DNA from: Meghimatium bilineatum
Taxonomy: Eukaryota; Mollusca; Gastropoda; Stylommatophora; Philomycidae
Assembly: GCA_034231615.1 (NCBI GenBank)
Contig: CM067322.1
Coordinates: 66,697,354 to 66,761,353, forward strand
Reading direction: 5' to 3'
DNA length: 64,000 bases
A model generated the notes under the pieces. The model was not told the DNA's origin, searched no databases, and saw only the letters and a list, made by a program, of their open reading frames with translations. The translations under genes and the position numbers were made by a program. This document shows positions 28,635 through 62,269 of the stretch, in pieces (the first letter of the stretch is position 1; each line of letters begins with the position of its first letter).

Positions 28635-28758
28635 CAAAATTTTCAATTTTAAAAAGTATAGACCCTATCATCTGGAATATATACTCTATTTAATAAAAAA
28701 AAATGTTTTCATCATTGACGTTAAAATGATTTTGCTACTATCAATTTATTAGTTTACA

Positions 28759-30970
28759 GAAGCAATAATGATACCTCTCCTCAAATCAGGAAAAGATGGC
28801 AACACAGTCTCCAACTACAGGCCCATCAGCCTCACAAGCTGTCTATGCAAAACAATGGAACGCATTATCAATCTTAGGATGAAGTGGTACCTTGAAAGTG
28901 AAAACCTTCTGGTATCACAGCAAGCAGGTTTCAGACAGTGCTACTCTACTGAAGATCAGGCAACCTACCTCTCCCAAGAGATTGAGGATGCCTTCCAAGA
29001 TAAGAAACTGGTACTAGCAGCATGGATAGACCTCAGGAAAGCATTTGATAAGGTCTGGAAAGAAGGGCTCCTAAAGAAATTGCGAAATTGCAGGGTTAGC
29101 TCAAGAATGTACAAATGGGTAAAAGCATACCTGCATAATAGAAGAGCCAGGGTACAATTAGATGGTCGCAAAAGCAAGAAAGTCCTACTGCATCATGGAG
29201 TCCCCCAGGGAGGAGTCCTGTCACCCACACTTTTCTTGGTTTACATCAATGACCTAGTTGCTGAACTACCACACGGGATCAAAGTGGCAATGTATGCTGA
29301 CGACCTGGTGATCTGGTGCACGGAAGAACATGCGACAGTGGCCACTAAACAAATACAAAGAGCTATCGATGCCCTAACCTTATGGGCAAATAGATGGTGT
29401 GTCAGCATTAACACAGATAAGTGCAGCACTACACTCTTTACCCTCTCACCAAAACAAAAAGCCGGTCATATCAAGATAGACGGAGAGCTCTTGAAAGAAG
29501 ACAAACAACCAACATACCTCAGAGTTACTTTTGATGATAAGCTGACATGGAAGCAGCACATAAACAAAGCAACAACAAAATCCAGGAGGAAGTTAGCTAT
29601 CCTGAGAAAACTAAGTGGAACCACATGGGGAGCCAGTGGGAATATACTCAGTAAAGTTTACCAGCAAGGCATAAGACCACACCTGGAATATGGTTCAGCT
29701 GCGTGGTGTCCTGCATCAAACACCACATTACAAGATCTAGATAAAGTGCAAAACCAGGCACTTAGAATAATGTTGGGAGCAATGAAATCAACACCCATAG
29801 CAGAGATGCAGAAAATGGGAAGAATGCAAACACTTGGCGAACGCAGAGACACAAAAGTACTAATTCAAGCAGAAAAGTTTCAGTGTATGCCAAGTCATCC
29901 AATGAAGGAAAGATTCCAAAACCTAGCAATGGGGCGACTGAAAAGAAGCAGCTTTATCCATCAAGCTAAACGACTCCGTAGACAACTTACAGACCTACCT
30001 GAAGTTGACAGCCCCTTAAGGTCTGTACCAGAACAAACCCCATGGAGTGAAAGGCATGGAATGCCAATATACATTCAGACCCATGTGAAAGGAATACTAA
30101 GCGAGGACGAACTGAACAGTGTGCAGCGGAGGACAGTCACCCTCAGTTTCCTTGACGAAGAATATCCACAAGATATATGGGTCAGAGTATACACAGATGG
30201 GTCAGCACAGAATGCTGTGAGGAATGGAGGTGCAGGTGTAAATATAGAATATCCACACAAGCCTAGAGATACAATCAGAACACAGACAGGAAAATTCTGC
30301 AATAATTATGATGCAGAAATCCAGGCAATTAGTGTGGCAGCTAAAAAACTGATGAACTCCAACTCTGACCTACAGCCTGTGGTATTCCTGACAGATGCAA
30401 GGTCAGTGCTTCAAGCTCTCCAGTCTGGAAAACTAATAGACTTGCAAAAACTACTTAGCGAATTGTCTTACCAGTATAGGGTAACCATGCAGTGGATACC
30501 CTCTCACTGTGGAATACCAGGAAATGAAAAAGCAGACCAACTGGCTAAGGAAGGTGCTGCCGAAGATCAACCAGATGTACCAATCACCTACCATCAGAAA
30601 AAACAGATGATCAAGTCAATAAGAAAGCCACAAACACCAACACAAGATGACTATCACATTATGAACAGATCAGAACAAGTTATAATTCTACGTCTCAGAA
30701 CAGGACACAACCGACTCCGCAGTCACATGTATACAAAGTTCAAGATTCGCAACACGGCCATGTGTACATGTGGACAGGCAGTACAGAGTGCCAAACATAT
30801 ATTTCAAGAGTGTTCTGAGCATGAAACGCTGAGGCAGACATATTGGCCAGAGGAAACAACACTGGAATCAAAGCTCTATGGGACACTGTATGAACTACAA
30901 AAGACAGTGAGTTTTATTAAGGAGACAGAATTGCAGATATAGACATGTTTCAAGTGAACGAAAGAAGAAA
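28759..30970 (+). mobile_element. LINE-A, open RT-RNase H frame, perfect 11-bp TSD
   Basis: A non-LTR retrotransposon whose 5' end (endonuclease, any ORF1) is missing. The frame from ATG 28768 to 30942 is open for 724 codons. RT blocks: NYRPISLTS (about residue 18), AAWIDLRKAFDKVW (83), GVPQGGVLSPTLFLVYINDL (145) and YADDLVIW (175, catalytic Asp pair). RNase H lies at residues about 480-605: VYTDGSA, YDAEIQAI, VFLTDARS and HCGIPGNEKADQLAKEG, so the D, E, D, H/D set is intact. A zinc knuckle CTCGQAVQSAKHIFQEC closes it. The tail is GAACGAAAGAAGAAA. TSD ATTAGTTTACA lies at 28748-28758 and 30971-30981. It is in the RNase H-bearing I/Nimb-like group, though the clade is uncertain. This is the youngest LINE in the window. 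Confidence 0.95.
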
Positions 30971-31890: not shown

Positions 31891-33886
31891 AGCAGACATC
31901 AGTGGTGTGGGTAGATATGGAAAAGGCCTTTGATTGTGTATAGAAAGATGGACTCCTCCTTAAACTACAACAAAACAAAGTGACAGGGCGCATGTATTAC
32001 TGGATAAAACACTACCTGCACAACCGAAAAGCAGCAGTGAAGCTTGAAATTAAGCATAGCAGAAAGAAACTCTTTAAGCATGGAGTACCACAGGGAGGTG
32101 TTCTATCCCCCACTCTATTCCTTATATTCATGAATGACATTGACCAAATTCTCTCGCGTAAAGTAAATGCTGCAATGTATGCAGACGATCTGGCGATATG
32201 GTGCAGTGAAGAGAGCGTAGGCACAACAAAAATAAGGTTGCAAGAAACTATGGACAATTTGGCCAAGTGGACAGACCAATGGGCCATGTCCATCAATGCT
32301 CAAAAAACTACCTATACCATCTTCAGCATGTCCACCAAACCACAGAAAATCCTACTAACCATAAATGGTCAAACATTACCAAAAGATGAGACACCTACAT
32401 ACCTTGGAGTCACTTTTGATCCAAGACGTACATGGAAATAGCACATAGACAAGTGCCAAACAAAAGGTACAATGAGGACAGCACTCCTTAAAAAATTGGC
32501 TGGAACAGATTGGGGTGCAAATGGAAAAATTCTAAGTAGAGCATATACAGGTTATGTAAGACCAGCTTTGGAATATGGAATGTCAGCATGGGGGACTGCA
32601 GCCAAGTAACACTCAAAAGATCTCAAAGATACAAAACCGCAATCTCAGAATTATAACAGGAGGTATGAATACTACCCCAATCACAGAAATGGAAACATGC
32701 ACAGGTTTGCCATCAATGGAAGAAAGAAGAAATGAAAAAATCCTCACACAGTATGCAAAGTTCAAATGTTTGGAGAGTCATCAAATGAACCAAAGACTAA
32801 GCAGACCTACAAAAGAGCGACTCAAAAGAGGTAGCTTTCTACACTCCGCTAAACAGCTCCAGAAATCACTCACAGATACAGACCTACAAAACCTAAAACC
32901 ACTAAACACCTTTAACACATACCCAACATGGGACAGGAAAAACTTCCCAAGAATTATGGACAATATACCAAGCATTATTTCGAAAACAGAAACTACTATA
33001 CAAGTACTAAAGGAGACAACTAAGAATCACATACAGAAAGCATACCCAAAGGATATATGGACACACGTATATACAGATGGATCAGCGAAAGAGGCAGTAT
33101 TAGATGGAGGATCAGGAATATATATAGTAACACCAGATGGAAAAGAAATAGAGAAATCCATACCCACAGGCAAACATTCCACAAGTTTCAAAGCAGAAAT
33201 GGAAGCCATAATAGAGACAGCCAAAATGCTCATGAATTGCTTGCCGAGTCACACCAGACATGTAGTATTTCTAACGGATGAAAAATCAGTATTGCAGGCA
33301 TTGAAAGATCCAAAGAACACGATCATGAATGAACTTACGGCATGCTTACTACACCTCAGCAGTACCACCAAAGAAACAGTACTGCAGTGGATCCCAGGTC
33401 ACTGTGGCATACCTGGAAATGAAAAAGCTGATCTCCTGGCAAGGAAAGGGGGATCACTGGAACAAATAGAAAATGATAATATGTACTATGAAAGTAAGAC
33501 CATGTTAAAAGCAGAATATAAGAAAAAGTGGAAGCAAATGCACCCAACTGCAGAACCAAATGACCCTTACCACCAAATGTCACGCAAGGAACAAACCATC
33601 ATTTTCAGACTACGAACTGGTCACAACAGACTGAGAAGTCACATGTTCCGAAAGCTGAAGATTGGTGAGACAGACCTGTGCAACTGTGGACTGAGCCCAG
33701 AGACTGCAGAACACATTCTTCATGCCTGTCACTCTACCAAGAAGAGAGGGAGAAAATATGGCCTACTGAGACGGCACTGCTTCCAGACTTGAGGGGTTCC
33801 ATGGATGACCTGAAGCGAATCACACAATTCATTGAAGCTATTGGTGCTGTAACCTGATATCTGACTGAAGAACAATGAAGAAGAAG
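31891..33886 (+). mobile_element. LINE-A2, RT-RNase H, perfect 12-bp TSD
   Basis: A 5'-truncated LINE related to LINE-A. It encodes VWVDMEKAFDCV, HGVPQGGVLSPTLFLIFMND, MYADDLAIW and TPTYLGVTFDPRRTWK. RNase H words are HVYTDGSAKEAV, FKAEMEAII, VFLTDEKSVLQALKD and QWIPGHCGIPGNEKADLLAR, and the knuckle is CNCGLSPETAEHILHAC. In-frame stops lie near 31949 and 32440, with frameshifts near 32600 and 33745. The tail is GAACAATGAAGAAGAAG. TSD ATTCATATCATT lies at 31879-31890 and 33887-33898. It is older than the 28759 copy but still has a perfect TSD. Confidence 0.92.
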
Positions 33887-34262: not shown

Positions 34263-34855
34263 AAGGATGAATGTACAATGTTGAAGAAGACCCAACTGAG
34301 ATGGACTGGACATATATGAATGTCTGATGATACATGATGATCTCATTAAGGGAAAACTACTGGCTGGTGAACAGAGAAATGCTCTTAAGTACTCTCTCAC
34401 AGTGTCTCTAAAGATCTTCAACATCAATATCACCTGGGAATACATCTCTCAGTATCTCCCAATGTGGCACAGCAACACCAACAAAGGTACTAGCATTTCT
34501 GAGAAAAATTACATTTCAGAGACACAGAAAACATACTTCTTGAAAGGACAGAGTAGCAAACACACAGATGTCCGATTCTTATACTATATTATTACTATCT
34601 AAAATGTGGCAGAGAATTCTATGCCTGAATTTGACTTTTTGTAATCTCCACAAATGTCAGAGAAATGTAACAATGAAATTCTGAAACAGTTTTCATCATC
34701 ACCTGCTATGCATTGCTATTATTAGTAGCGAGCTTTGTTATTATAGTAGGAGGCACCATCTCATTAATAATATTATCAAGGTGATTTTTCTAAAGTTACT
34801 ACTCTTTGACTTTTTCAGGTTAATCTGGAAGCTTTAAATTTATTCAACCAAGACA

Positions 34856-35182
34856 ATGCTAGTCCTGAGAAATAGAATTCCAGTGTGGCACAAGTATTTG
34901 AAAAATACCTGCATCCAACCCAAAAATGTCACTACTTCATCATTATTGTTCAGTTCAGTACCAACTTGTGGTTTATTTCTGCAGCTGAAAAGCAATATTA
35001 CTAAAGTAATTCCATTATGCGCCACTTCATCCCGGAATTATGTACAACCACACTTTAGAAAACTTGTTAGATGCTCTCCATCTACATCTGTTAGACCTAT
35101 ACATCTCAGCTCATATTGTGCCATGGCAGATTATCCTAAAGGAACAGGTAATCAGGAGCAGGAAAATCTTATGGCCGAAATG
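34856..35182 (+). CDS. TMEM160: TMEM160 coding exon 1
   Basis: It encodes MLVLRNRIPVWHKYLKNTC through NQEQENLMAEM (109 codons) and ends at ATG|GTATGA, phase 0. A likely 3' splice site (CTTTTTCAG, ending 34818) lies 37 bp upstream, so a 5' UTR intron is possible. An alternative donor ACAG|GTAATC at about 35148 would end in phase 1 and could join exon 3 directly, skipping the microexon. Confidence 0.8.
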
Positions 35183-38100
35183 GTATGATTAAAGTAAATA
35201 TGTGTAGTTAGTTTGAATGAAAATTTAATTACTTATTCTGCTTTCCATGAGCTTCTCATTTAGATTTCAATATCCATTTTCTGATAAAACAATCTGTCCA
35301 TTGGAGATAATGCTTTTATGTCCTGAGTTTTACTCTTTCTAAGTAAGAAGCTTCTCAAAGCATTGGACATCGCTGATAGTTGGAGCCTTCTGAGTATTAA
35401 ATAAAGCTCTAGAGAAACCTTCCCATTGTAATAAAGTATACAAGAGCTATATTGCTCATAATTCTTTGGGATCGAAACAAATAACAAGCAAGCTTTAGAG
35501 TTTGTCAATTAGTGTGGCTCTGTGTGGTCAGATGTTGGACTTCCTGCTAGGTTGGATAGTTTTGAAGGATATGCTTTAGATTGACACAGAAAATCCATGA
35601 TGGATTCCATGAAAAAAAAGACACTGTAGCCATCTTATTTGACTTACAACTTATGATCAAGTATAATGTCTATTGATAAAGATTATTGAGGTAGGAATTA
35701 GTGAAAAGCTATATTACTGGATAAAATTACAGAACAATCCAGACAAAGATACATGATTCAATTTCATCTAAAGAAAATTAGTTGTAGAGGAAGACTCACT
35801 ACAGGGTTCTGCTTTGAACTGCACCATCTTTCTTATTTACATTAAATGACCTAACCAAGCATATCAAAGCTAAAAAAAGTCCTCTATTCTGATGACCTAG
35901 CAATTATGGCAGAGCCAAGAGTGTTTAAAGTGCAGCAAAAAGACTAAATGGAGATTTAAGAAGACTGCTCAAGTACTGTCAAACAGGGAAGCTGAAAATA
36001 AACTGTGAGAAAACTGTCTATACCATCTTTACCATGAAATATAAAGTAGCCCAAGAAAATGTCAATCTGTAGTTATATACACAGAAATTGCCAAGAGAAG
36101 ACCATCCTATATATCTTGGAGTCATGCTTGATTGGAAGCTCACCCTCAACAGGCATGTAGAAAATGTCATAAATAAAGCCATGAAATGGTTACAGCTACT
36201 GAAAAGGCTCACTGGCACATCTTGGGGATCAGACAAAGATACCCTCAGAGGACTATATCTTGGTTACATACATTCTGATTTTACATACATTCAAAACAAT
36301 ACACTCCTGATAACATCTTCCAAACAAATGTAGAAACTCTAGACAGAGTGCAGAACAATGTCCTATGCCTTATTAGTGGAGCAATGAAATCTAAACCAAT
36401 GGCTGCATGTGAAATACATACAAATGTAGAATCCATTGAGAAACAGAAAAATATGGCTGCAATGGAGGTTTATGAAAGAAGCAAAAGAATGAACAAAGAC
36501 AACCCAAATAAACAACTTGTAGAAAACTGGCAACTAAAGTTCAAAATAAAATAATAGTCAGTCCTCAACCATGTCAGTGAAATCAAATCCAGCTATCACA
36601 TCCCAGACAAAAGACAAGAACTGCAAAGAGTAGAAAAATATTTATCACCACACACATTTTAAATTGCCAGAAATTAAGACACAATTAAGAGATAATGCAA
36701 CGAAAAGTTCTCTGACCCAGTAAATCTTATGAAAGCAATACAGAAAACATGACACCTATGCAGAACAATGGATTCATGTCTATACTGATGGGTTTGCTTA
36801 CAAAGCCACCATCAAAGCAGGTTATGGTGTCTATATAGAATATCCAGACAAAATATCTGATGAATTGTCTGATGCCTGTATGGAGATATGTTCTAACTAT
36901 GAACCTGAAATAGCAGCACTAGAAGTTGCCTTTGTACCACCTGAAGACCATATTTGATGCTTTTCCATCAAAAGTCCAAAACATTGTGATTTTTACAGAC
37001 TCTTTTCTCGGACGGTGGCCATTGAAGACGGAACCCGTTAAGGAGTGTGTAACAACTCACCTGTTGAATCAACCAGCTCTTCGTCAACCAAAAAGACAGA
37101 AACATTCGAGGGGTAGCCAATGTCAATATATGTTTTTACTGATGTTTTATTATTTATTTAGCTTTATTAAAAAACCAACAATATACAACAATGATGGACC
37201 AGCAATACTGAAATCAGAAGTAGAACATGCAATAAATTCAATAAAATGTGGAAAAGCTGCAGGCTCTGACAACATAACAGCAGACATAATAAAAACTCTA
37301 AATGAATTTGGTGTAGATACTATCACAGAAATTTGCAGTGACATATACGAAACAGGCCATATACCTAAAGACCTAACATCATCAATATTCATACCACTAC
37401 CTAAGAAGCCCAGGGCTGTGGACTGTACAGATTATAGAACAATAAGTCTAATGAGCCATCTAACTAAAATACTTCTCAAGATAATACATGAAAGAATTAA
37501 GAACAAGATAGACATGGAGGTCGGTGAAGAACAATTCGGTTTTAGGAAAAACAAAGGAACCAGAGAAGCTATACTGAGTATCCGGCTAGTGATAGATAAA
37601 TATATAGAAGTCCAAAAAAGTATCTATATTTGCTTCATAGACTACAGCAAGGCCTTTGACAGAGTCCAACATGAAAAATTAATCAAATGTCTTCAAGAAA
37701 TAGGCATAGATGGAAAAGACATCAGGCTGATTAGAAATATATATTGGGAACAAACTGCATCAATAAGGTGTGAAAACAGCTACTCACCGTACATAGAAAT
37801 AAGAAGAGGGGTAAGACAAGGATGCATTTTATCACCAAGCCTATTTAATATCTACACAGAGAATATCTTTAAAAATATAGAAGAAATACCAGGACTCAAG
37901 ATCAATGGGAAAATAATAAACAACATTAGATATGCAGATGACACTGTTCTTTTAGCAGAAAGTGAACATGAACTACAAAGACTAATAGATCAAGTCAATA
38001 AATCAAGTAATGAATATGGACTGGATATAAACATTCAAAAAACAAAAACCATGATAATCAGCAAAAACACAGAAGAACAGGAGGTAAACATAAACATACA

Positions 38101-41100
38101 GGGAGAGAAACTACAACAAGTAAAACAGTATCAATATCTTGGACACATAGTCACAAATGATGGCAGATGTGAAACAGAAGTTAAAAGGAGAATAGGAATG
38201 GCTAAAAGTACCTTCAATGACATGAGGAAATTATTAATATCTAAACAAATTACAAACAAGTTAAAAATGAGAATTATAAAATGCTACATCTATTCCATAT
38301 TAATGTATGGCTCAGAAACATGGACACTAAATAAACAATTAGAAGACAAAATTGATGCCTTTGAGATGTGGGTATATAGAAGAATAGGGAGAACATCATG
38401 GAAAGAGAAGAAAACAAATAAAGAGGTGCTAAAAACACTTAATATGAAGAAAGAACTACTAAGAGAAATAAAGATCAGGCAAATAAAATACTTTGGACAC
38501 ATTAAAAGACATGACACCCTATTGAAGACCTTACTTGAGGGTAAAGTCAAAGGGAAGCGAGCAAGAGGTAGGCAGAGATACAAGTGGGAGAGTAACATTA
38601 CACGATGGACAGGTTACAGTCTAGCAGAGTGCACCACCAAGACAAGAGACAGGAGATGTTGGAGAAACGTTGCAGCCAACCTTCGTTGCGGAGACGGCAC
38701 TTGATGATGATGATGATGATTACTAATGGAGGAAGAGGAAGATCATATTAACGACAATAGCTTTAAAGGTGGGAGTTGAAAAGGCATATTGGACTCAGTG
38801 TAAACGATGATGACCATTCAACTAAACTGGGATGATGATAAAGGTGATATCTGCGGTGTGCCAGAGTGTGACTAATGAGTCTTATGCATGCCTGGAATTG
38901 TCTACCACATTCTAAACATGTGTGTCATAATTAGATGCATTGTTCCTGCGCCCACGGGTACTGAACCGTTTCTCGTCTTTTCCCATCTGTGAGCATGGTT
39001 CCAGTAAGGAAATACTCTACAATAGATTTGAGCTCGGGTTTGTTTACCCTCTTAGCTCTTAGTCAAGGCTTCATTCACCGACATCGCCTAAGTCTGAGCC
39101 TCTACAGATATTTAGTGATATTTGCTGCTTCTGCTTTTCCATGAGACATTATTCTTGGAGATAACTAGAAGTTTGTTCTCGAGCTAAACATTGCTTTAAT
39201 TACGATTTTCTTATAGCATTTTCTCCATTCTATTTGCACATGGTGCTGCCCTATAGCGATGTGCTGCCCTCTCATTGTACTCAATATGCTAACCTGAGGC
39301 TTGCTCATGATTCTCGATGTTTGTGAGCTTGAGACAGGACATTCCTGCATTCAGGCCACACACTGTCTTATACTCTACTGCAACAATGTTTTGGCTGTGA
39401 GGACAGAGATGTTTCATTCAGAGATCTTTTTTTTTGTCATGGGCAAACAAATTTCCTTCTTTCTTAATCTATACTGCTCAGACATGATCCATAAAGCACT
39501 AGCCATGCTGCTTCACATGAGCTTCAAAACAGTCAGTTTCCAAGGTGCACCTCTAGGAGATGCTTTTATGATCTTAGTTACCCGGTATCTGCTAACCCTG
39601 GCTCTGGATGAGAGCAATGCATAAACCTTTGCTGCCCATATCAGCATTCAAAATGAAATGCTATAGGGGTTCAAAGGTCATAAGATTGTCATGGACAGAA
39701 AGATGAACCAACGAAGATGTCCACAAAGATCTGAACATAGAAGAAGACACTCAAACTGTCAAATACTGCATGTTTCATTTTTGAGGGAGGGATTTTGTAG
39801 CTGTGTGATACAGACTACATGCTCTTGCTGTCACCATGCCATGTAAAGGGTTTTTTTAATTTATAGAAGAAGACTGGCTCCTCAAAACTATCAAAAAAAA
39901 ACAAGCAAATATATTTTGGACGTATGAAAAGACACAATGGTTTAGAAAGATTAATCATGGAGAAAAATATCCAGGAAAGAAACAAGAGACTATGACTAAG
40001 ACTATGATGGACACAGAATATCGAAGACCTTCTGAACATGATTCTGAAAGAGGCTGGACAGCTTACACAGAACTGAGAGGCTTATTGCATGGCAGTGAGG
40101 GGAACATGTTCTATTAAAAACATGTCACATGGGTGATGTTTAATATTTGTTTAATATGATCTGTTTAATATTTGTCTAATGAGATCTGTTTAATATTTGT
40201 TTAATGCGATCTGTTTAATATTTTGTTTAATGAGATCTGTTTAATATTTTGTTTAATGAGATAGCTAACATGTTTAGTGAAATCGATTTCCCTGGAAAAT
40301 CAAATAGTGACATTGAAATCATAAATGATTCAGTAGTTTTCACATGCTTCCATCATTTAGTTCCATCAGATAGTGCTCCTCAAGAAGCATTGCTATACAG
40401 ACACAATGGATACAGAGTCAGGGTCATACCATGCAAAAGATGGATTACAAAAATAAAAGAATCAATGAAAACAAGCATGTATGAAACACACAAATAGGCT
40501 GTCTCCAGAGAACTATTTAACCTCTGATGAGATATAAGGAGTATAAATCGAAATGAAAGAAGAAATCATAAATATATTGAGAGTTGATATATTCTTCAGA
40601 TGATAACTTCTTTTCTTAAGAGTTAAAAAATGTCTGCTAGATGCTATTTTATGATCATGTTATTTTCTCAAAAGTTTCACATTTATATAATTTGCTTATA
40701 ATATAATATTTTAATATATTATTTATAATTATTTATAATATTATATTAATATAATAATTTTTTTTCTCTGTGATGCTGAAATATATGAAAAATTTATATC
40801 TGTTCTTCAGAACCTGCGACTGGTAAATGAGAATAGTAAGTCTTATTTGTCTTTTGTGCTACATAAATAATAATATCATATATAGCTTATGATGATATCA
40901 TGTCTGGCTATGTGGTGGCAAGGTAGAGGTGCAGAGAGCTTATGTGAAGGTGCTGGGCTCAAATTTCACTGCAGGATATTGTACATTCAGAAATCAATGA
41001 CAAATTATTGAACATAAATACTGTAAATAAAATTACTACAGCCAAACAATTAATTTTAACATATCGAAGCATGGCTTCTGGGTCTTTGACCCTCTATAAG

Positions 41101-43812
41101 ATTGAATAGCCAACTCCACGCTTAATCTTCTCTTACAGGCAGGTAATAATGTATCTTATCTTTGCTTCACATCTGGGCCTGGCAACACACAAGCTGTCTA
41201 AATATTCATCTTTGATAGGTCTAGATATTCTTCTTGATATTCTGTTTTGAACACATGAAGCTGTACATCATCTTATTTTGTTGTGCTCCAAGTCTCCGAA
41301 CCATATAAATGGGGATTGTGCATCTCTGATTTTTATTATGATAGTCTATGGTATTCAGAGATATCTTCATGCACTGCAGCGAGCAAGAAAATAAATGATA
41401 CCATTATTTTCTCACATTATATCGTATGCTGACTTGTACTGTTTGTTCACAGTAATAATATACCAACATTAATATATGCAGGAGCTGTGGTAGCTCAGTG
41501 GTTAGCGCCCTGGCTTCTTAATCTGGTGATCCAAGTTCAATTTCCAGTTCAACTGGGAATATTTTAAAATCCTCAAAGGCCATTAAGTTGACCAAGCCTA
41601 AGGAAATGGGTACCAGATCTTATGGGAAAGTAAAGGTGGTGAGCTCTGATACTGACCACATAATTCATTGTATGCCATTGATCAATGAGAAATACAGACC
41701 AGACACTGTATTCCTTGATACACTTTAGGTGTCAATAAGGGAAACGTCACTTTAAAAAAATATATTCAGGAAGTTTTACAAAAGAATAATGTATATGAGC
41801 TTGTGAACTTAATGTAAGCTTGTGGTGAAATTTTTAAAATGCTTATCAGTCAACTTCCAAAAACATCATTCTGTATTTCAGTCCAAATTCACTGTAAAAT
41901 GTGTATTTTAATCCCATATTTTATATAAAAAGTACTGAACTATGGTCGTTTTTGTTTCTACTCTCAGAAATTATAGCAATAGAGCTTTTGTATCCTTTGT
42001 GCAATGGGAAAGTTTCTCCAGAACTTGATTTTATACCCAGAAGGTTGCAACTCTTAAGTGTTGAGCAATGTTTTGAGAGAGAAAAAAACTCTCCCAGGCA
42101 GGGTAAATCATAATTGTATAAATGATGTTATGTGGGGAATCTACAAGAGGAAAACCTCACTATATATGCATGTCTGTGCTGAAGACGGAGGCAGCCAGCC
42201 CAAAAGGAGCACAATGAATCAGGATGCCATGCACAAAACACAATGGAAACATGTCAATATCTCATAATAGTTATAGTGCCTGCCCTGTGGCAGATTTTCG
42301 GGCAGGCCCTATACCTCGAAAGGGCCCAACCTCAATTACTGGAGGTCCTTCTCGGGTGCCCTGGGGGGGGGGGCAAGGGAATAGAGCTACTCAAGGTTCT
42401 ATGGGCCACTGTATGAACTACAAAAGACAGTGAATTTTATTAAGGAGACATAATTGCAGATATAGACATGTTTCACATGAACGAAAGAAGAAGAAGACAT
42501 GCATGTCATCTACTAAGGGCTTACACACATGGTGGTTGAACAATGGTGAGACTTTTCAAACCTTCTGCATGCAGTAAAGATAAATACATGGTTAAAGGTT
42601 AACATGGATTTAGCCTATTCAATGAAAACTATGTATATTCTGTACAAATGAAAAAAATATGTACCAGTTATAGACATACATTATTTAAATACATAAAATG
42701 ATACTTCTATTAGGTTTTCTGTCCTGGTGCCGCAATGCTTACTTGTCCTCTGTGGTTGGTGTGGCTATGATTACAGAAGGAACAACAGCTTTAGCTCAGA
42801 GTGCTGGAGTAGGTATGTCAGATGTTGGTTGTCTTAATTTTCTGTGCAGTGTTACTTGTGATATTAAATATCTCAGAAGGATCATGCTGTACAATGAAAC
42901 CTGTGGACCTTCTAGTGTGGTAGCCTAGTTAGTAGTGAACTTGCTTACCATCACTGGGTTACAGCATGCTAGGTTCGAAACCTCATCAGGACAAAAACAT
43001 CCTGTTTGTAATTTCTCGCCTGACTCGACAGCTTCTCCAGTTGACCCAGCTGTAAATGGGTACCTCAAGCATGGGTTAGGGAAGGTAAACACATCAAGGT
43101 AGGAAAGTGGCCATCCCATCTAATAGTTGCTGTGGCTTAGTACATGAAGTTATCTTCATTCCCCAACGTCAGATTGCTGTCATGGGATATACATTTACCT
43201 TTAAAGTAAGAACATTTATTGATAGAAAAATGATATCTAATGAATAAAGTTCTGTAAATAAATCTAAAAATCACAGATAAATTTGAATACATTAAAAAAA
43301 CACATTAATCCTATGATTAATACTTTTACAATTAAAAAAGTTATACTTTGTCATTGTGTAGTAAATGAGTTCTAAAAATCTAAGTTACGGTATGTTTAAT
43401 ATTTTCTTTATTTGCTGTTATAAACTATAAGATTATAGGTATTGATTTGATTGAGTTTCCATCTGTATTATGCTAAGAATTAACTATAATTTGAAATGTC
43501 AATGCAGTTGAATTCATCGTTTCAGGAGCTCTTGTTGTGGGCACAATGAACTTGTTTTGGGGAACTTCATGCCACATCTCTAATCTGATCCGGATGAGAC
43601 ATGTCACAAGAATGTCCAGTATAATACTTTTTCTCAATATTTTGGGCTCCTTTCTTCATTGCCTTCTGTGGATATTTGTTTTAGTATGTTACGTAGGCTT
43701 CCTAGATGAAACTAACATGTTTGAGCAGCAGCAAAATGCTGATATTAATCCAGTTTTACCTGACGTTGAGTTTCAGCATTCTGATAATAGAATTCATAGA
43801 AAAAAACAATGA
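34856..43812 (+). CDS. TMEM160: TMEM160 ortholog, mitochondrial membrane protein, 4 coding exons
   Basis: The predicted spliced coding sequence is 34856-35182, 40811-40835, 42714-42812 and 43526-43812, 738 nt or 245 residues. All introns are GT-AG and the phases agree (0, 1, 1). Residues 1-90 are rich in R, K, S and T without acidic residues, a typical mitochondrial presequence. FLSWCRNAYLSSVVGV (119-134) matches the FLSWFRNGLLASGIGV I recall from human TMEM160. GTMNLFWGTS (156-165) matches LCVVWGSAS. A long hydrophobic helix covers about 181-208, followed by an acidic end as in the family. Human TMEM160 is 188 residues; this one is longer at the N-terminus. The family is an inner-membrane protein of mitochondria with an unclear biochemical role. 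An in-frame stop at 34835 precedes the ATG. Confidence 0.88.
35335..35490 (+). repeat. Unidentified interspersed repeat, SINE-G
   Basis: CTTCCCATTGTAATAAAGTA, then CAAGAGCTATATTGCTCATAA and TTCTTTGGGATCGAAACAAA. Its first part is present in inverse at 41975-42095, and its last part recurs near 24805 and 54675. This is probably a SINE. The ends are unclear. Confidence 0.45.
35540..37005 (+). mobile_element. LINE-G, RT to RNase H, broken
   Basis: A plus-strand LINE. It encodes KIAISEKLYYWIKL-like words, a damaged QGS/YSDDLAIMAEP RT core near 35880, LPREDHPIYLGVMLDWKLTL, VQNNVLCLISGAMKSKPMAA, then RNase H words WIHVYTDGFAYKATIKAGYG, NYEPEIAALEVAF and IVIFTDS. It stops at the RNase H third Asp, where the 28S scrap begins. 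Multiple frameshifts are present. Confidence 0.75.
37006..37081 (+). pseudogene. 28S rRNA fragment
   Basis: CGGACGGTGGCCATTGAAGA (37009 on), then CGGAACCCGTTAAGGAGTGT and GTAACAACTCACCTGTTGAA closely match the conserved large-subunit rRNA stretch that I recall as CGGACGGTGGCCATGGAAGT, CGGAATCCGCTAAGGAGTGT, GTAACAACTCACCTGCCGAA. About 65 of 72 positions agree. It lies exactly between the break in LINE-G and the LINE-B region, so it is a captured rRNA piece and not a functional gene. Confidence 0.85.
37160..38729 (+). mobile_element. LINE-B, open RT frame, (TGA)n tail
   Basis: A LINE without RNase H; the frame is open to TGA 38704. The order is: GPAILKSEVEHAINSIKCGK (thumb lead-in), IPLPKKPRAVDCTDYRTISL, ICFIDYSKAFDRVQHEKLI, RRGVRQGCILSPSLFNIYTE, NIRYADDTVLLAESEHELQ, YQYLGHIVTNDGRCETEVKR, SETWTLNKQ, FEMWVYRRIGRTSWKEKK, IKYFGHIKRHDTLLKTLLEG and GKRARGRQRYKWESNITRW. 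It ends ANLRCGDGT with a TGATGATGATGATGATGAT tail. It lacks the endonuclease, so it is 5'-truncated near 37160. The RT is uninterrupted, so it is fairly young. The clade is RTE-like, unsure. No TSD was found. From 38730 to 38900 nothing is seen. Confidence 0.92.
38940..39630 (+). mobile_element. LTR-retrotransposon fossil, LTR end plus leader
   Basis: It shares blocks in the same order with 51563-52800: a GGGTACTGAACCGTTTCTC word, ATTCACCGACATCG, TAACTAGAAG, a GTGCTGCCCT word and TATCTGCTAACCCTGG. No gag or pol is present. It is older than the 51563 copy. It is a broken remnant. Confidence 0.55.
39860..40110 (+). mobile_element. LINE-K C-terminal fragment
   Basis: The plus strand encodes IYFGRMKRHNGLERLIMEK then a broken run ending in an EAGQLTQN..AY word. 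It resembles the FGHVKGHNCLERQILDGRVY block at 48465-48735. It is short and full of stops. Confidence 0.5.
40138..40262. repeat. 27-bp minisatellite, about 5 units
   Basis: Units of GTTTAATATTTGTTTAATGA then GATCT, with little drift among the last four. Confidence 0.9.
40249..40497 (+). other. Open frame of unknown origin, 82 codons
   Basis: It encodes NSDIEIINDSVVFTCFHHLV, PQEALLYRHNGYRVRVIPCK and WITKIKESMKTSMYETHK, an ordinary-looking amino-acid mix, inside TMEM160 intron 1. I do not recognise it. It could be an exon of an unrelated gene, a processed pseudogene scrap or chance. It begins within the minisatellite, so the start is not real evidence. Confidence 0.25.
40811..40835 (+). CDS. 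TMEM160: TMEM160 coding exon 2, 25-nt microexon
   Basis: The stretch is bounded by a pyrimidine-rich acceptor (ATCTGTTCTTCAG) and a strong donor (GTAAGT). It reads NLRLVNEN plus the first base of a Ser codon, entering at phase 0 from exon 1 and leaving at phase 1 into exon 3. With exon 3 it gives LRLVNENSFLSW, which lines up with LRKAHETAFLSW of human TMEM160 as I recall it (L, R, E and FLSW identical). It is inferred and needs transcript support. Confidence 0.65.
40905..41065 (+). mobile_element. SINE-C copy
   Basis: The head has GTGCTGGGCTCAAATTTCAC (B-box region). The body is TGTACATTCAGAAATCAATG, CAAATTATTGAACATAAATA and a CACTACAGCC-like end. Confidence 0.6.
41060..41200 (-). mobile_element. 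SINE-A fragment
   Basis: An antisense piece: AGCATGGCTTCTGGGTCTTT, ATAGCCAACTCCACG and GGGCCTGGCAACACACAAG. The tail half is missing. 41200-41475 shows a LINE-like scrap (TGCACTGCAGCGAGCAAG) and no gene. Confidence 0.55.
41475..41755 (+). mobile_element. tRNA-derived SINE with clear A and B boxes
   Basis: GTGGTAGCTCAGTGGTTAGC opens the element (A box TAGCTCAGTGG), and CAAGTTCAATTTCC follows at about 41532 (B box). The spacing fits a tRNA gene, but the acceptor stem is not complementary and no discriminator/CCA end is seen, so it is a SINE head. The body (CATTAAGTTGACCAAGCC, GATACTGACCACATAATTCA) is unlike the other families. Confidence 0.75.
41975..42095 (-). repeat. SINE-G copy, inverse of 35335 repeat
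   Basis: CAATGGGAAAGTTTCTCCAG, CCCAGAAGGTTGCAACTCTT and GAGCAATGTTTTGAGAGA match the inverse of 35335-35490. Also in TMEM160, intron 2. Confidence 0.4.
42378..42497 (+). mobile_element. LINE-A 3' end fragment
   Basis: TGGGCCACTGTATGAACTAC, AAAAGACAGTGAATTTTATT and GAACGAAAGAAGAAGAAG match the last 120 bp of LINE-A. It is a strongly 5'-truncated insertion, close in sequence to the 28759 copy. Confidence 0.8.
42714..42812 (+). CDS. TMEM160: TMEM160 coding exon 3
   Basis: It follows acceptor TTCTATTAG and ends at GTAG|GTATGT. It encodes FLSWCRNAYLSSVVGVAMIT then EGTTALAQSAGV, the conserved core and first hydrophobic segment. It begins and ends in phase 1. Confidence 0.9.
42905..43200 (+). mobile_element. 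tRNA-derived SINE-D
   Basis: GTGGTAGCCTAGTTAGTAGT (A-box region) and CTAGGTTCGAAACCTC (B box, near 42970) form a tRNA-like head. The body contains CTGACTCGACAGCTTCTCCA and CCCCAACGTCAGATTGCTGT. It lies in intron 3 of TMEM160. 43200-43520 is AT-rich intron. Confidence 0.65.
43526..43812 (+). CDS. TMEM160: TMEM160 coding exon 4 with stop
   Basis: After acceptor CGTTTCAG it encodes ALVVGTMNLFWGTSCHISNL then IRMRHVTRMSSIILFLNILG, a hydrophobic helix (LLWIFVLVCYVGFL) and an acidic, polar tail ending RIHRKKQ and TGA. A polyadenylation signal was not identified with confidence. Confidence 0.9.
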
Positions 43813-44487
43813 GGTCTGATGATCTTTATTCTTCTAAACTATTTTATTGACTGTATTGTGTGTAAGTTAATTATTGTGTGTGCTTTATTTATGCGTTAAG
43901 ATACTATCCCTCTACTCGATTCTCAGACATAGGCATTTAAGATGACAGTTGTGTGAAAAGAATGCCAAATTATCTCACTCCCAAGAAAATTCTCTTAGTT
44001 AAGCTCTCATCTGATGAATGACAAAGGGGTAGATCAAAGCTACGATATAAAGACATCGTCAAATAGCTTTGAACAATTTTAGGATTAACCCATATGCTTG
44101 GGAAAATTGGCTGTTGATTGTACAGTATGGAGTACAGCGCTATGTTGAGGCATCCAGTTGTCGGAGAGAGAAGTCTGAAGATATGCAACATAGATAAAAC
44201 GCATCTTAACCATTAACTTAAACACATATTTGTTATGTATATTCTATTCCCTGCTGATATAATATTGGCAAAATATCCAAGAGAGAAGTTGCAATTTAAG
44301 GTCTTTGTAGTCCATATGTAACTTTTACACTGGCCTGCTTCCTGATCATCTGTAAAGATGCAAAAAGCAATCATAGTTATTATCTGTTTTATCCATCTTT
44401 TCAACTGACATGCAAAAAGCCATCATAGTTATTGTCTGATTTATCCATCTTTTATCCATAGTTGAAGATAGCATATCCGAGGCAATG
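43813..44487. other. Downstream of TMEM160, no gene
   Basis: Probably 3' UTR and then intergenic DNA. A short duplicated piece, 'GATGCAAAAAGCAATCATAG / CATGCAAAAAGCCATCATAG' (44357 and 44409), is a 52-bp tandem duplication. No other signal was seen. Confidence 0.5.
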
Positions 44488-44870
44488 ATCATCAGGTGCC
44501 ATGCCAGCTGGCGTAGGCGATCATGGATCTCCACAGCTCTCTATCACTAATACTATGTATTAGGCTCGTTGTTGACTATGCCATGCCAGGTTATTAAACA
44601 GTCCAATATTTTCTCTGTCACCCTCTGTCTCTCTTGCTTTCAATATTTCCGGTTGTAACAATGTTCTCCAAACCACCGTCATAATGAGGTCTAAAAATCA
44701 AGATTGTCTTTTCCTTTTAATATTGATTAATCTCCATCTCACATTTGACTATTTCAACTCCTCCACATTAGTTTTTCCAGCAGTCAATAGTATTCTCAGC
44801 ATTCTTCTAAAGAACCACATCTCTAATGCCTCTAATTTCCCACTATCCTGGTTGTTTATTTTCCAATAAT
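44488..44870 (-). mobile_element. LINE-C/D 3' end fragment
   Basis: Minus strand: ATCAGGTGCCATGCCAGCTG then GCGTAGGCGATCATGGA is the complement of the MIAYA..HGT end. Further right, ATTTCCGGTTGTAACAATGT matches the TTGKI block and CAGCATTCTTCTAAAGAACC the FRRML block. Stops are frequent. Confidence 0.7.
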
Positions 44871-46293
44871 GAGGCGATGATATCATTTGTTAAAAAAAAT
44901 CAAAACTTTTGCATGTTGAGCTGTTATAAAAATAGCACAGAAGAAATAATGATACATGTAGTCAGCTCTCAAAGTAAGCCATGGATGGTTTACACAATTT
45001 AAGAGGGAAAGAGTTATAAAAACTGCTTTTACGCTCGTATAAGTTTGATTTTGGGGTGGCACAGATTAATTAAATTTACATTATTTCCTATGAGAAAATG
45101 AGTTCCGTACTTGATCTGCTTGGCAGTTGAACTATCTTCTGGAACCAATTAAATTCAAGTACTCAGGTACAATTGTTTGTAGTAAAGATGATTTCACACT
45201 TTCTTGTGTTTAAATAAAATCATATTTTTTTTTCTTTAATCACTTGTTCAAAATATATGAAAGAAAATAATTTGAACATTGACTGTAAGTGTATATTTTT
45301 GTTCTGTTAATTGATTTAATAAGAATTGTTTAAAGAAATGGATTAATGTGTTTTTCCAATTAGCTGTAATAATGTAACTATACAAAACGGACATTTGTTG
45401 TAATCTATTATTTATTCATTTTCCTTCAGAGCTGAAGTTAGCACATAGGGCAGAGGTCAAATCTCTCCAATTCTGTTCATTCATTATTATTATATCTATG
45501 CATAATTATATATTATATTATATATGTGGAAAAGCTATGATATTACCCACATTGTGCCAAAGGATTCAAGTGAAGGAGCACATGTGGGAGGATACAAAGC
45601 TTATCCTGGAATGGGAAAATGCAAACTAAAACCAAACTGTGTGGCAGGGCAGTTCAGGTCCTTAGCCTTGGCCAACAGCTGGTCTAGGTTGAGAGTGCCG
45701 ATATGCAGACAGATAGAGCACAGCTCTTCTAATCCGGCAGCTTTCCTTGTTCCAAATGTACTGGGAATTCCTTTCCTTTAGACACTTTAGAGTTAACAAG
45801 GCAAGCAGAGAGAGATGGATCATGCTGCATGAGCAGCACATGGTCTCTATATTTCAGCCCGGACATTGTGCTATGGAGAGGTTTACTCCATCCCTGACCT
45901 TAATGAGTCTCTGGATCAAATCAGGAGATGGCAGTTACAGGTTATTTTCTTCTTCTTCTCATTTACAGTTTAGCATGTCTACACAGCAAATCCAGTTTTC
46001 TTGATAAACGCTGTTGTAATTGAAAGCTCCTCAAGGCTCCTGTACAGCTTTCTGTGGATGCCAGGCACTGCTCCTGGGGGAACTTCACAGGGCGAACACC
46101 ATGATGATTAAAAATTTTTGTATAAAGACATGTTAACTAATCAGGTTGCATGATACAGTACCATGGTTGCTGGTGCACCTCTCTGCCTGACTGTGGTCTT
46201 TCTTGATGTATAGGATGGTTCAACCAATCTTAATTTCCAGCCTCTATCGACTGGACTAAGCTTTACCTCCACTTCAAGGAGTTGGCCATGATG
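44871..46293. other. Mostly unassigned; small LINE scrap
   Basis: 45420-45480 repeats the LINE end AGCACATAGGGCAGAGGTCA seen at 18255. The GC-richer stretch 45550-46100 has open frames (for example 45524-45781) but no motif that I know. The other parts are AT-rich. Confidence 0.4.
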
Positions 46294-46305
46294 GGGTTAT
46301 GGTTT

Positions 46306-46467
46306 CTTCTTCAGCGTTCATTCTCAAACTCCCACAGGATATCTTGTAACAGGACCATGGTCCTAATAGATTTCCAGAAGGATGTAGTCCAGAGAATGGA
46401 AATGCGTTGTGTCGCCGATTTATTTGCGCCAATGGCCCGACACATCCGCCTTCGGCGGGGGGGGGGA
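46306..46467 (-). mobile_element. SINE-B copy with perfect 12-bp TSD
   Basis: An antisense SINE-B of 162 bp between GGGTTATGGTTT at 46294-46305 and 46468-46479. Its 5' end has expanded into a G run (CGGCGGGGGGGGGGA). Confidence 0.9.
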
Positions 46468-46689
46468 GGGTTATGGTTTATAGGTCCTTGTCAATTTATG
46501 TAAACAAAGTACACCACAAGCTATCTCTGATGGGAGACACTTTGATCAACTAACTCCACCTCAAGCTTCACATCCCCAAACCAGTAAGGTGTTGATCCTT
46601 CACAGACTGTCTGCTTCAATGGGTGCTTGGAATTAAGACAAAATCTGAAAAATTAGCTATAAATAAATTGTACCACACACTACCACAGT

Positions 46690-46890
46690 ATTTTCTATGC
46701 TCAGTCTGTGCAGACTCAGATGGCTAGGACATACTAGGAAATTGGAAGATGGCAAAATGCAGAAAGATCTACTTTATGGAGAATTACAGTCTGGGAAAAG
46801 ATCTCAGGGTCAATCTCCACTTTGGTACAAAGACATATGCAAATGTGATGTGCACGATATAAGCATTGATACAGAATCACGGGCAAGCAG
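46690..46890 (+). mobile_element. LINE-H C-terminal fragment
   Basis: The plus strand encodes LRWLGHTRKLEDGKMQKDLL then YGELQSGKRSQGQ and YKDICKCDVHDISIDTES, the 'RWLGH..RM...R.PK.LLYGEL..G.R..G.P..RYKD.CK' block. The same family is at 56000-57180 (minus). 46900-47490 shows no gene. Confidence 0.7.
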
Positions 46891-47489
46891 GCCTGTGATT
46901 TCTTGTATATACTTGGGGAAGTCTCTTTGTAACTCAGGTTGGTCTTGTGAGTCTGATCCATCATTGCCATGGATCATAGATTATATTTCTTATAGTGCAA
47001 GAATAATACTATCATATGGAAAGGTGCTACTGTTCATTATTTACTCAAAGATCAAATTTTAATGAGAAAATATTGTCATACGTACTTATTATAAACCATA
47101 TGATGTTATGTTACTATGTAACTTTAATATGTCATAATATTGCATGCCATGACCTTATGCAAGAAGTAATTTTATAGACAAGTCTATTGTGAATAAAGTA
47201 TATGATTTTGTTTAAGTTCATGAGATGGACTCAGTTTTTTTCAAATGTGTGATGCTCAAAGCACGAAATAAAGAATGTTAGATATCCTGGGAAGTTATTA
47301 TTCGATACAGAGGCAGCACTTAATGATGATGATACTCAATTCGCAAACATTGAAACAACTAATATAGTTATATATTATAACTATGTATAGTGTCAACAAA
47401 GCATGAGAACATTTGGGGTTTTGATGCCAATGTGAAGACATCAGTTCTGAGTTATAGTTTCGCCCATGTGTTACTGTGGCCTGAAACAT

Positions 47490-47817
47490 ATTTCAGCATG
47501 GCTTCTAGGTCACTGACCCTATATGGAATGGAGCTTAACCAAAGATGGATGTGTCAGGTCATTAGCGCAAATAAAACAGCAACACAACGCATTTCCAGTT
47601 TCTAGACTACATCCTGCTGGAAATCTGGTTGGACCATTGTCCTGCCACAAGAGAGATCCAGTGGGAGTTTGAGAATGAACGCTGAAGAAGAAGAATATGG
47701 AATGGAGCAACTTTCTTCACCCCATAATCTCCTTAGTTGTCTCCAGCGACATGCATAGAAGGTAAGCAGTATCGCTATTCTTTACTCCTCTTTTGGGCCT
47801 GGCAACACATGGATGTC
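47490..47817 (-). mobile_element. SINE-A fragment split by SINE-B
   Basis: An antisense SINE-A: TTTCAGCATGGCTTCTAGGT, CACTGACCCTATATGGAATG, then after the insertion CACCCCATAATCTCCTTAGT to GGGCCTGGCAACACATGGA. The break is at ATATGGAATGGAGC. The stretch 47818-48140 holds no gene. Confidence 0.8.
47535..47694 (+). mobile_element. SINE-B inside SINE-A, perfect 14-bp TSD
   Basis: A sense SINE-B of 160 bp flanked by identical ATATGGAATGGAGC at 47521-47534 and 47695-47708. It runs from CCAAAGATGGATGTGTCAGG to GAATGAACGCTGAAGAAGAA. The target is an older SINE-A, so this SINE-B inserted after that copy. Confidence 0.93.
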
Positions 47818-48139
47818 CAGCCTCTAATCTAGGCCGAACTCTTGCTCCTCGCCCCTCATGCAGGCATCATAAAACTAAATTTATTTAATGTCACCTCTGG
47901 AGATTGCTTTTTGCACCTGATTACGGTAGGGACGCCAAGAGACCTTTCTTTCGTAGGTAGGTAGCTCCCCACTCCCTTTATACCAGAAATACGTATTTAT
48001 AGCCTTATATAAAGCATTAAGTAGTTTAAAAAAAATATACCTTATATGATCTTGTAATATTGTTGAATCCGTTCACAGAAAACCTCCAAGATATTATCTA
48101 GAGCACATTGACTTATTTGATGTCTATTTAAGGCCAAAT

Positions 48140-48385
48140 GTGTCGCCTTGGCTGCACTGAATCTGTATTTGTTCAGTGTTGTCTTGAGATGCTATTTATC
48201 CATCCTCTGTCCTTGTATCCTGATCTTCTTATGTTATATGTTGTAGTTGGTAATGGTTCATTCTCATAAGGTGTCCAAACAATTTTATTTGTTGTTCTCA
48301 ATGTATTTTGTGCATAGTCTTATACCAATTCTTATTGATTTCTCATTTTGTCTAGTTTGGTCACTCTTGCATAGTCATCATATTT
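48140..48385 (-). mobile_element. LINE C-terminal fragment
   Basis: Matches 10690-11040 on the minus strand (CATTCTCATAAGGTGTCCAA ACA.. and GATTTCTCATTTTGTCTAG), the complement of the W.GH..RM block. It abuts an (AT)n tract. Confidence 0.5.
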
Positions 48386-48388
48386 TTA

Positions 48389-48390
<2 letters not shown>

Positions 48391-48464
<74 letters not shown>
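48391..48464. repeat. (AT)n microsatellite
   Basis: About 37 uninterrupted AT dinucleotides. Confidence 0.95.
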
Positions 48465-48467
<3 letters not shown>

Positions 48468-48735
48468 AGAATATTGGTTACTACACACAATAGCAAAAAT
48501 AAAACTACACCTGTTTGGTCATGTAAAGGGACACAACTGTTTAGAAAGACAAATATTGGATGGCAGAGTATATGGAAAGAGGAGAAAGGGCAGACCAAGA
48601 AGACGATGAACTGACAACATTAAAGATAACATGAATACGTCGCTGGAAAATGCAAACCCCATTGCATAAGACAGAGAGGGGTTCAGTGAGTTCAGTGGGA
48701 AGACAACATTCTGGAGAGAATACGTCACATAACAA
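48465..48735 (+). mobile_element. LINE-K C-terminal fragment
   Basis: The plus strand encodes LHTIAKIKLHLFGHVKGHNC, LERQILDGRVYGKRRKGRPR then RR, and after a stop TDNIKDNMNTSLENANPIA. This is the 'GHVKRH..LE..I..GRV.GKR.RGRPRRRW' end of a LINE. Related to 39860-40110. Confidence 0.65.
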
Positions 48736-49132
48736 CAACACCCCATTACCACTCTCATTGCCTCATTTTGAATGTTTTCCAATCTATCTATGTGTGTCTG
48801 TGATAGTGTCAGTAGGTCGAGTACAGAGCAGTGGTACTTCCAGTGCTGTTATACGCTAGTGAAACATGAAATGTGTACAGACGTCATGTGCGGAAACTCA
48901 ATCACTTTCACACAACTTGTCTCAGAAAAGTTATGAACATCAGATGGCAAGACAAGATTCCGGATACTACTGTCCTTGACAGATCTGGTATCCCCAGCAT
49001 TGATATTATCCTGATGCAGGCACAGATTCGTTGTGCAGGTCATTTGGTATGTATGCCAGACCATCGCCTGCCAAAGATACTTCTCTATGATGAGCTGTAG
49101 AAGGCTGAACGATCTCAAGGTGGCCAAAAGAA

Positions 49133-49293
49133 ATTCTTCTTCTTCTGTGTTCATTCCTAAATTCCCACTGGATTTCTATGGAACAAGACTATGGTCCTAC
49201 AAGATTTCCAGTTGTATGTAGTTCAGAGAATGGAAATGCATTGTGTTGCCGTTTTATTTGCGCCAATGGCCCAACACATCCGTCTTCGGCGGA
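49133..49293 (-). mobile_element. SINE-B inside LINE-F, TSD GGCCAAAAGAA
   Basis: An antisense SINE-B of 161 bp. GGCCAAAAGAA occurs at 49122-49132 and 49294-49304. The flanking LINE-F reading (SQGGQKKR) rejoins exactly when the insert is left out. Confidence 0.92.
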
Positions 49294-49621
49294 GGCCAAA
49301 AGAAGCGCAACAAGGACTCGTTAAAGACCTCATTGAAAGTGTTTCAAATAAACCAAGACACATGGGAAGAACTGGCACAAAATAGACCTACATGGCGCTC
49401 TACAGTCAAAAAGAGTGTATTATCTTGTGAAAAGAGGAGAAATGCTGCAGCTCAACAGTGGAGAGTAGCTAGAAAGTCACGGATATACCAAAATCCGCCT
49501 GTAGTGGCCATTCCATGTCCGAAGTGTCCAAGGACATTTACAGCTCGAATATGGATCATTAGCCATCTACGAACTATTATGCATGGTCATAATTCTAACT
49601 GAATTTTCAAAAGTGGATGTA

Positions 49622-49883
49622 CTTCTTCTTCTTCAGCGATCAGTTTCTTATGCTCATAAGTATATACAGGAAGTGGGCCGCCTCCACGAATTCAGTCGTC
49701 AGCAGGAGGTCCTCACAGTTGCCCCACAGTTTTACCATCAGATCTGTCTCTTGGGGCCATATTTTAGTTCTCACGTCATCAAAGAGTGGGCATGTCTGCA
49801 GAATGTGTTCTGGAGTCTGGGGACCCGTTTGACATGGGCATTGGTCAGTTTGGACACCTTAATTTTGTGGAGATGTGCTTGTA
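49622..49883 (-). mobile_element. LINE-J 3' end inside LINE-F
   Basis: The minus strand encodes a zinc knuckle CPCQTGPQTPEHILQTC then PLFDDVRTKIWPQETDLMVK, LWGNCEDLLLTTEFVEAAHF and LYILMSIRN with a stop, open throughout. It ends GATCGCTGAAGAAGAAGAAG, nearly the same tail as SINE-A and SINE-B. GATGTA at 49616-49621 and 49884-49889 is the likely TSD. Confidence 0.85.
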
Positions 49884-50030
49884 GATGTAAAAAAAAAAAA
49901 GGTCATTACTTGTGATGGATGAACACACACATGTCGAGGCCATAATCTATGTCAGATGGCACCACCTTTGTAGAAGCAGAAAGTGAGTACCCATTGCCGC
50001 ATGTCCAAGGTCGCCATTATCATGAATGAG

Positions 50031-50660
50031 GTTGATACAAATATAACATATTGATAATTTTTTTTATAAAAAGCTAAATACATTTTTTTTTAAAAGGATT
50101 TATATAGCGTTATTGATATTTGAAAGTTGTGTGCCACAAAATCTCTGCTGTGATCTAACAGATAGTTTAGGAGAAAATAGCATCTAACCAGGTTTATGAA
50201 TTTGGTTACATACTGACTGCAGCATATGCCTAGTACTCAGCATACTCGCAGCAGACAGCTTGCTGCAGTTCAAGATTCTAGGGATAATTCACTGAGACAC
50301 TGACTCATTAAGTTGTTCAAGTCGGCATACCGGGGCCCCACATTAACTCTGACACTGTGTGTAATACGCTTCTTAAGCCAACACTGGTACAGTAATCTGT
50401 GCTTTCACACGCTAACAGTGTTGCCAATTCATTTCGTAAAAAATCGCAACAATAGTCTATGCATAGAAAGCACTCAATTTAAAAATAAACTAATTATTTT
50501 AATTAAAATTTGGTAAGATATCACATTATAGTACAGGGCCGTAAACATTTTTTCTTATGGAGAGGGGGGGGGGTTCCTAATAAAAGGTCAGAACCTGTCC
50601 TTGTGGCGGGGGGGGGGGCAGGGAAGGGGTGTTGGCTCTTGGACCGACTTTTGACCAAGT
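50031..50660. other. No gene seen; G-rich runs
   Basis: AT-rich apart from two poly-G tracts (50562-50574 and 50607-50618) that could form G-quadruplexes. No exon or repeat was recognised. Confidence 0.45.
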
Positions 50661-50681
50661 TAATAGTACTAATAGTACTAA

Positions 50682-51294
50682 GATCATAGTGAATGATATG
50701 GTATTAAAACAGGTCCACCAATTCAAATATTTAGGTACAATTATTACAGCAAATGGAAGAAGTTCAACAGAAATAAGATGCAGAATAGGACAGGCAAAAA
50801 CAGCATTCAGAAAAGTGTACTGATAATATGACCTTGTCATTAGAGGTGAGAAAGAGAGTTCTGCAGTGCTATATAACCCCTATACTAACATATGGGTGCA
50901 AGTCTTGGACAATAAACAAACTGGAAAGTGGGAGATTGGAGGCAATAGAGATGTGGTTCTACAAAAGAATGCTGAGAATACCATGGACTGCCAGAAAAAC
51001 TAATTTAGAGGTGTTAAAAGAGTTAAATGCGAAACGGACCTTAATCAACAATATAAGAAAAAGGCAATCTTCTTTTTTTGGGCACTTCATGAGACAGGCA
51101 GGTTTGCAGAACATAGTCACAACAGGCAGGATTGAAGGCACCAGAGACAGAGGGCGACAACGTGAGAAAATGTTAGACAGTTTGACGACCTGGCACGGCA
51201 AAGAAACAACAACGACTTTGATACATGATACTGTGGACAGAGAGCTGTGGAGAGCCATGACCGCCTACGCCACCTGGCATGGCACCTGATGATG
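50682..51294 (+). mobile_element. LINE-D 3' end with 11-bp TSD
   Basis: The plus strand encodes IVNDMVLKQVHQFKYLGTII then TANGRSSTEIRCRIGQAKTA; after one frameshift near 50822 it continues CYITPILTYGCKSWTINKLE, EMWFYKRMLRIPWTARKTNL, FFGHFMRQAGLQNIVTTGRI and RDRGRQREKMLDSLTTWHG, ending ATWHGT and TGATGATG. TSD AATAGTACTAA lies at 50671-50681 and 51295-51305. Confidence 0.9.
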
Positions 51295-52800: not shown

Positions 52801-52802
52801 AG

Positions 52803-53222: not shown

Positions 53223-53280
53223 TGATGTTGGAGGTCTGTTACAGCCAAACTTCGTTGTGAAGACGGCACTTAATGATGAT

Positions 53281-53977
<697 letters not shown>

Positions 53978-55990: not shown

Positions 55991-55999
55991 TTCCATATC

Positions 56000-62265: not shown

Positions 62266-62269
62266 TTCT

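Follow-up and report, generated by a model that had tools for sequence, protein, structure and literature searches.

Does a 25-nt stretch lying between two repeat-filled introns belong to the coding sequence of a slug membrane protein gene and, if so, is it always spliced in? The question arises in a window (the whole 64,000-nt stretch of Meghimatium bilineatum DNA analysed here) located on a 105-Mb contig, within a genome that was searched over 1.61 Gb in 32 contigs. With a probability of roughly 0.8, we predict that positions 40811-40835 are a constitutive coding microexon in a TMEM160 gene that is present in single copy.

A four-exon gene model and its probable 25-nt exon

The gene model lies on the forward strand. 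Its four exons (34856-35182, 40811-40835, 42714-42812 and 43526-43812) join into a frame of 245 aa with a single terminal stop, and are separated by introns of 5628, 1878 and 713 bp. The coding part of exon 1 (34856-35182, 327 nt) starts with the ATG at 34856, encodes 109 aa of presequence-like character and ends in phase 0 at the main donor, GTATGA (35183-35188). Inside this exon there is an alternative donor, GTAATC (35148-35153, in the context GGAACAG|GTAATC), with which the exon would end at 35147 in phase 1. The whole exon spans 34819-35182, and the good acceptor (score 10.1) located just before 34819 suggests that a 5' UTR exon exists upstream of the one bearing the ATG. Exon 2 is the 25-nt stretch itself (40811-40835, AACCTGCGACTGGTAAATGAGAATA), preceded by the acceptor ATCTGTTCTTCAG / TATATCTGTTCTTCAG and followed by the donor GTAAGT, i.e., it falls within the size class of microexons (up to about 30 nt) and has spliceosomal flanks (TTCAG / GTAAGT). 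It is entered in phase 0 and left in phase 1, the phase in which exon 3 begins at 42714, and adds NLRLVNEN plus the first base of the next Ser codon. The acceptor, length, donor and phases are thus as the original prediction had them, and so is the LRLVNENS that it placed before FLSW. Exon 3 (42714-42812) encodes FLSWxRN and the first membrane segment. Exon 4 (43526-43812, stop codon included) encodes more hydrophobic segments, among which only residues ~180-212 exceed the 19-residue hydropathy cut of 1.6, and the C-terminal tail.

The first two introns had been described as 5.6 kb and 1.9 kb long and full of repeats, which agrees with their contents. Intron 1 contains, on the forward strand, a 5'-truncated piece of a LINE (RVT_1) with a TGATGA tail (37169-38715), which must be a recent insertion since at least 39 further copies, spread over many contigs, are 99-100% identical to it along its length (40 of 26,325 first-look candidates were scored). 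The family is probably young and recently active, and no target-site duplication of 6 or more bases was found in the stretches compared. Intron 2 has a dispersed repeat (about 42175-42497), for which at least 39 further copies matching at 76-88% were found (40 of 7,552 candidates scored). Elsewhere in the window there are more reverse transcriptase or RNase H frames, presumably from non-LTR elements (28753-30939, 31944-33792, 20060-20975 and 12148-12651), and a tandem array with a 24-nt unit and a 120-nt higher period (1616-2126), spanned by an open frame of 218 aa (1585-2238) with no Pfam match. Rfam gave no matches at the gathering threshold in the window.

For the identity of the gene we used a sequence that we take to be human TMEM160, the fragment in the original prediction being of the same standing. 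The 245-aa model matched this presumed human sequence over the membrane core with an E value of 2e-10 (120 columns, from LRKAHETAFLSW onward, exons 2-4), and the BLAST score was 45.8 bits with the microexon and 40.8 bits for the skip form. LR-x-x-x-E-x-x-FLSW-x-RN, followed further on by a WG pair and by LLW-x6-Y-x-G, is common to both proteins, whereas the N-terminal region of the slug model is longer than in the presumed human protein. The gene is likely TMEM160, as had been proposed, because the presumed human protein matches exons 3 and 4 too. Human TMEM160 has been located in the inner mitochondrial membrane (PMC9714381). In the slug model there is no acidic residue among the first 91 (the first is at 92) and there are 12 K/R; there is a hint that this protein could have the same location. 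Neither the main text of PMC9714381 nor PMC11816668 (“exon” once, in the reference list) gave an exon structure for human TMEM160.

The 25-mer is single copy in the 1.61-Gb genome, even allowing up to three mismatches. In a protein search of the genome, exons 1, 3 and 4 matched at this locus, and the next three matches had E values of 0.45, 0.98 and 2.45, all with internal stops. Intronless copies, which would have displayed the mature mRNA, were absent from the genome both by protein match and by 25-mer search. A peptide pattern search for TMEM160 relatives matched 18 stretches in genome contigs and six in viral contigs, none of which encodes a relative, and the sole match of the model in the PDB (E 0.78) was judged to be due to chance.

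Resemblance to bacterial DUF202 and VTC membrane domains

DUF202 (PF02656) includes the bacterial YidH/YidG and the fungal VTC membrane domains. Eleven of 33 plasmid records yielded a set of 19 DUF202 proteins, some of them represented by the matched stretch only; none was picked by motif, 11 having been found by similarity to YidH and eight being their neighbours. In 18 of the 19, the residue two positions ahead of the T of R-T-x-(L/M)-x-W is a glutamate, and in 11 of the 19 an N comes before it. When 80 further proteins fetched with patterns containing LANE or RTxLxW were included (99 in total), the motif was readable in 98, of which 97 had the glutamate, and N-E was present in 91/99, an agreement that is partly the product of selection because 80 of the 99 were retrieved with those patterns. 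The LVNE of the microexon aligns with the L-A-N-E of the DUF202 motif LANERTFLAW at the exact place, so that the reading of the locus as TMEM160 with this microexon is also backed by bacterial proteins, in which N-E (or x-E) is found at the same distance before x-L-x-W.

The profile comparisons gave this same register, and higher scores when the microexon was included. The Pfam DUF202 model matched residues 119-168 with E 0.0024 and 18.7 bits (16.6 without the microexon), under the gathering cut-off of 23.4; the presumed human TMEM160 obtained 14.1 bits. Our 19-protein profile scored 9.8 bits with the microexon and 4.0 with it skipped, and the 99-protein profile 11.7 against 6.4. Of 5000 versions of the model with shuffled residues, 4635 gave a reported score against the DUF202 profile, the highest being 10.1 bits and thus short of 11.7. 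With hhalign, the E values of which hold for single comparisons, a two-row TMEM160 alignment matched the 19 proteins over residues 109-139 (E 3e-5, 73%). Against the 99 proteins, E was 4.7e-5 (68%) for the included form, whose match begins at residue 110, where the microexon starts, and 0.0024 (12%) for the skip form. For the presumed human protein alone, the alignment with DUF202 spanned 63 columns and kept this register (E 2.1e-5, 77%). In the slug model the resemblance extends over residues 110-168, encoded by exons 2-4. As in DUF202, N-E-x-x-F-L-(A/S)-W-x-R precedes the first membrane segment of the model, and past the second one there is an R that lines up with the M-R of DUF202. Within the motif (N)-E-R-T-x-L-x-W-x-R, the model has N-E, L, W and R, while R-T is replaced by N-S.

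Among solved structures, the 19-protein profile matched Vtc1 (E 1.4e-8), the R31 of which is located where the polyphosphate channel is narrowest, as described in PMC9911596. From the register of this match, we map the arginine of ANER-T to R31. The same position is occupied by N in the slug protein and by T in the presumed human one, i.e., the pore arginine expected after N-E in a VTC polyphosphate channel subunit was not found in the model, which has Asn instead. A VTC-like channel function is therefore not implied for TMEM160. A search of the whole genome with the Pfam DUF202 model gave three weak matches elsewhere, none above the cut-off and two with stops; the control search found matches in 5/14 named genomes, over the cut-off in four. 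Split exons are missed by this type of search, which did not return the TMEM160 locus itself. We found no paper naming both DUF202 and TMEM160 in the literature searched; among protein-family databases, the resemblance was looked for in Pfam. We would give even odds to TMEM160 being a remote descendant of the bacterial DUF202 proteins (YidH/YidG, with the VTC channel domains included), with the signature glutamate carried in this genome by an indispensable exon of 25 nt.

Chance controls and alternative splicing

Splice sites were scored with generic, hand-typed matrices, by which the acceptor of the microexon ranks 6th of the 525 AG sites and its donor 20th of the 327 GT sites in the stretch. 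Between 35200 and 42690 there are 355 open cassettes of up to 180 nt compatible with the main donor and 486 with the alternative one. The microexon is 4th of these 841 by summed splice score, 5th of 842 (counting the skip form) by DUF202 score alone and 1st of 841 when splice score and DUF202 fit are combined. For the shuffles, candidates were limited to 60 nt and had to pass splice thresholds, which leaves five in the real intron and about six in each shuffle. Of the five, the microexon alone gives [NH]E..FLSW. Dinucleotide shuffles reached the real combined score in 30/1000 cases and the DUF202 score in 75/1000, and 24/1000 had a candidate giving [NH]E..FLSW; a motif chosen post hoc, LR...E.[SAT], appeared in 12/2000. 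The decoy set consisted of 509,402 bases (20 stretches of 10 kb plus window positions 1-34700 and 44000-64000, both strands) and contained 713 candidates. Four matched the combined score (about 0.06 per 7.5 kb) and seven the DUF202 score; 36 gave E..FLSW and none LR...E..FLSW, and none reached the splice score together with the BLOSUM score to the presumed human protein. With the larger, 99-protein profile, 10 of 717 other candidates scored as high as the microexon. The splice sites alone do not raise the microexon above chance, because 51 of the 713 decoys (0.75 per 7.5 kb) had sites as good and three cassettes outrank it; adding the protein fit does so, moderately. The BLOSUM match to the human protein was rejected as evidence by itself, since 1126 of 2000 shuffled introns hold an AG..GT candidate that is as good. 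The line-up of L, R, E and FLSW with human TMEM160 put forward in the original prediction stands as a register; the resemblance to the human protein alone is weak. Taken together, the chance controls provide good but not decisive support for the microexon.

Direct joining of 35182 to 42714 shifts the frame and leads to a stop after 127 residues, so that this 25-nt exon does not behave like a regulated neural microexon that can be skipped without frame loss, and joining the alternative donor to the microexon (35147 to 40811) leads to a stop after 103. The only in-frame alternatives use the alternative donor, either with skipping (35147 to 42714, open, dropping 20 residues that include N-E) or with the first 12 nt of the microexon, up to its internal GT, in which case N-E is lost as well. 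This internal GT (ACTG|GTAAAT, leaving an exon of 40811-40822) outscores the real donor, 6.6 to 6.0.

The in-frame skip from the alternative donor had been foreseen, and does exist; the two isoforms proposed from it are possible but find no support here. Given the two stops just mentioned, they need donor choice and skipping to change together. This weighs against a regulated switch between 35182-microexon-42714 and 35147-42714, two open forms that are 20 residues apart before the first membrane segment, in spite of the fact that the donor at 35148 outscores the one at 35183 (7.7 vs 5.6). In addition, the skip form would lose the DUF202-like motif, and there is no sign of the neural microexon programme: the length is not a multiple of three, and within the 100 nt before the exon a single TGC occurs, beginning at -37. 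We consider such a switch unlikely, although the stronger score of the donor at 35148 means that a minor skip product may be formed. It is likewise unlikely, and if anything more so, that the 25 nt match by chance and that the true gene joins 35147 to 42714 or has another middle exon. The decoys that equal its splice sites or combined score, and the ease with which shuffles equal the human BLOSUM score, are what speaks for it. However, the microexon is the only one of the five real candidates with a DUF202 score above 8, and direct joining would omit a stretch present both in the presumed human TMEM160 and in DUF202. Finally, the abundance of transposons around the locus might indicate a decayed or non-functional copy, a very remote prospect for the sole good match in the genome, with four exons that form one open frame.

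A constitutive microexon is hence the reading that we prefer. We infer that it is actually spliced, and in all transcripts, through exon definition directed by the sequences on either side of it: a 3' splice site rich in pyrimidines, and a 5' site, GTAAGT, expected to pair well with U1. With exon 1 ending in phase 0 and exon 3 starting in phase 1, it would bring the two back into frame. It would also provide L-x-N-E, the first half of N-E-x-x-F-L-x-W-x-R, at the entrance to the first membrane segment, where the glutamate may have its role.

Meaning and comparison with known microexons

Microexons of this kind can be dropped by gene predictors, and it is plausible that this one is missed by automated annotation. 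If spliced as read here, it would serve as a test case for microexons that lie between introns filled with transposons, are constitutive and restore the frame. The function of TMEM160 is unsettled, and the DUF202 resemblance would give it structurally known relatives and single out the glutamate before FLSW as the residue to mutate.

Neural SRRM3/4-type microexons are often frame-preserving cassettes. The slug exon shares their size class; however, skipping it alone breaks the frame. A closer parallel is the 4-bp microexon of MPC1, reported in PMC9929638 to be included constitutively, exon definition requiring no more than 67 bp before it and 6 bp after it. As far as that report describes it, both are very short coding exons with a length that is not a multiple of three, flanked by long introns, in the gene of a mitochondrial protein. 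They differ in gene and in size (25 nt vs 4), and in the slug inclusion is predicted from sequence. By analogy with MPC1, a constitutive exon defined by its own flanks would be the economical reading. Tiny exons are an already known kind of thing and the slug microexon is ordinary in kind; the resemblance between TMEM160 and DUF202 is the more interesting by-product and the one most worth following.
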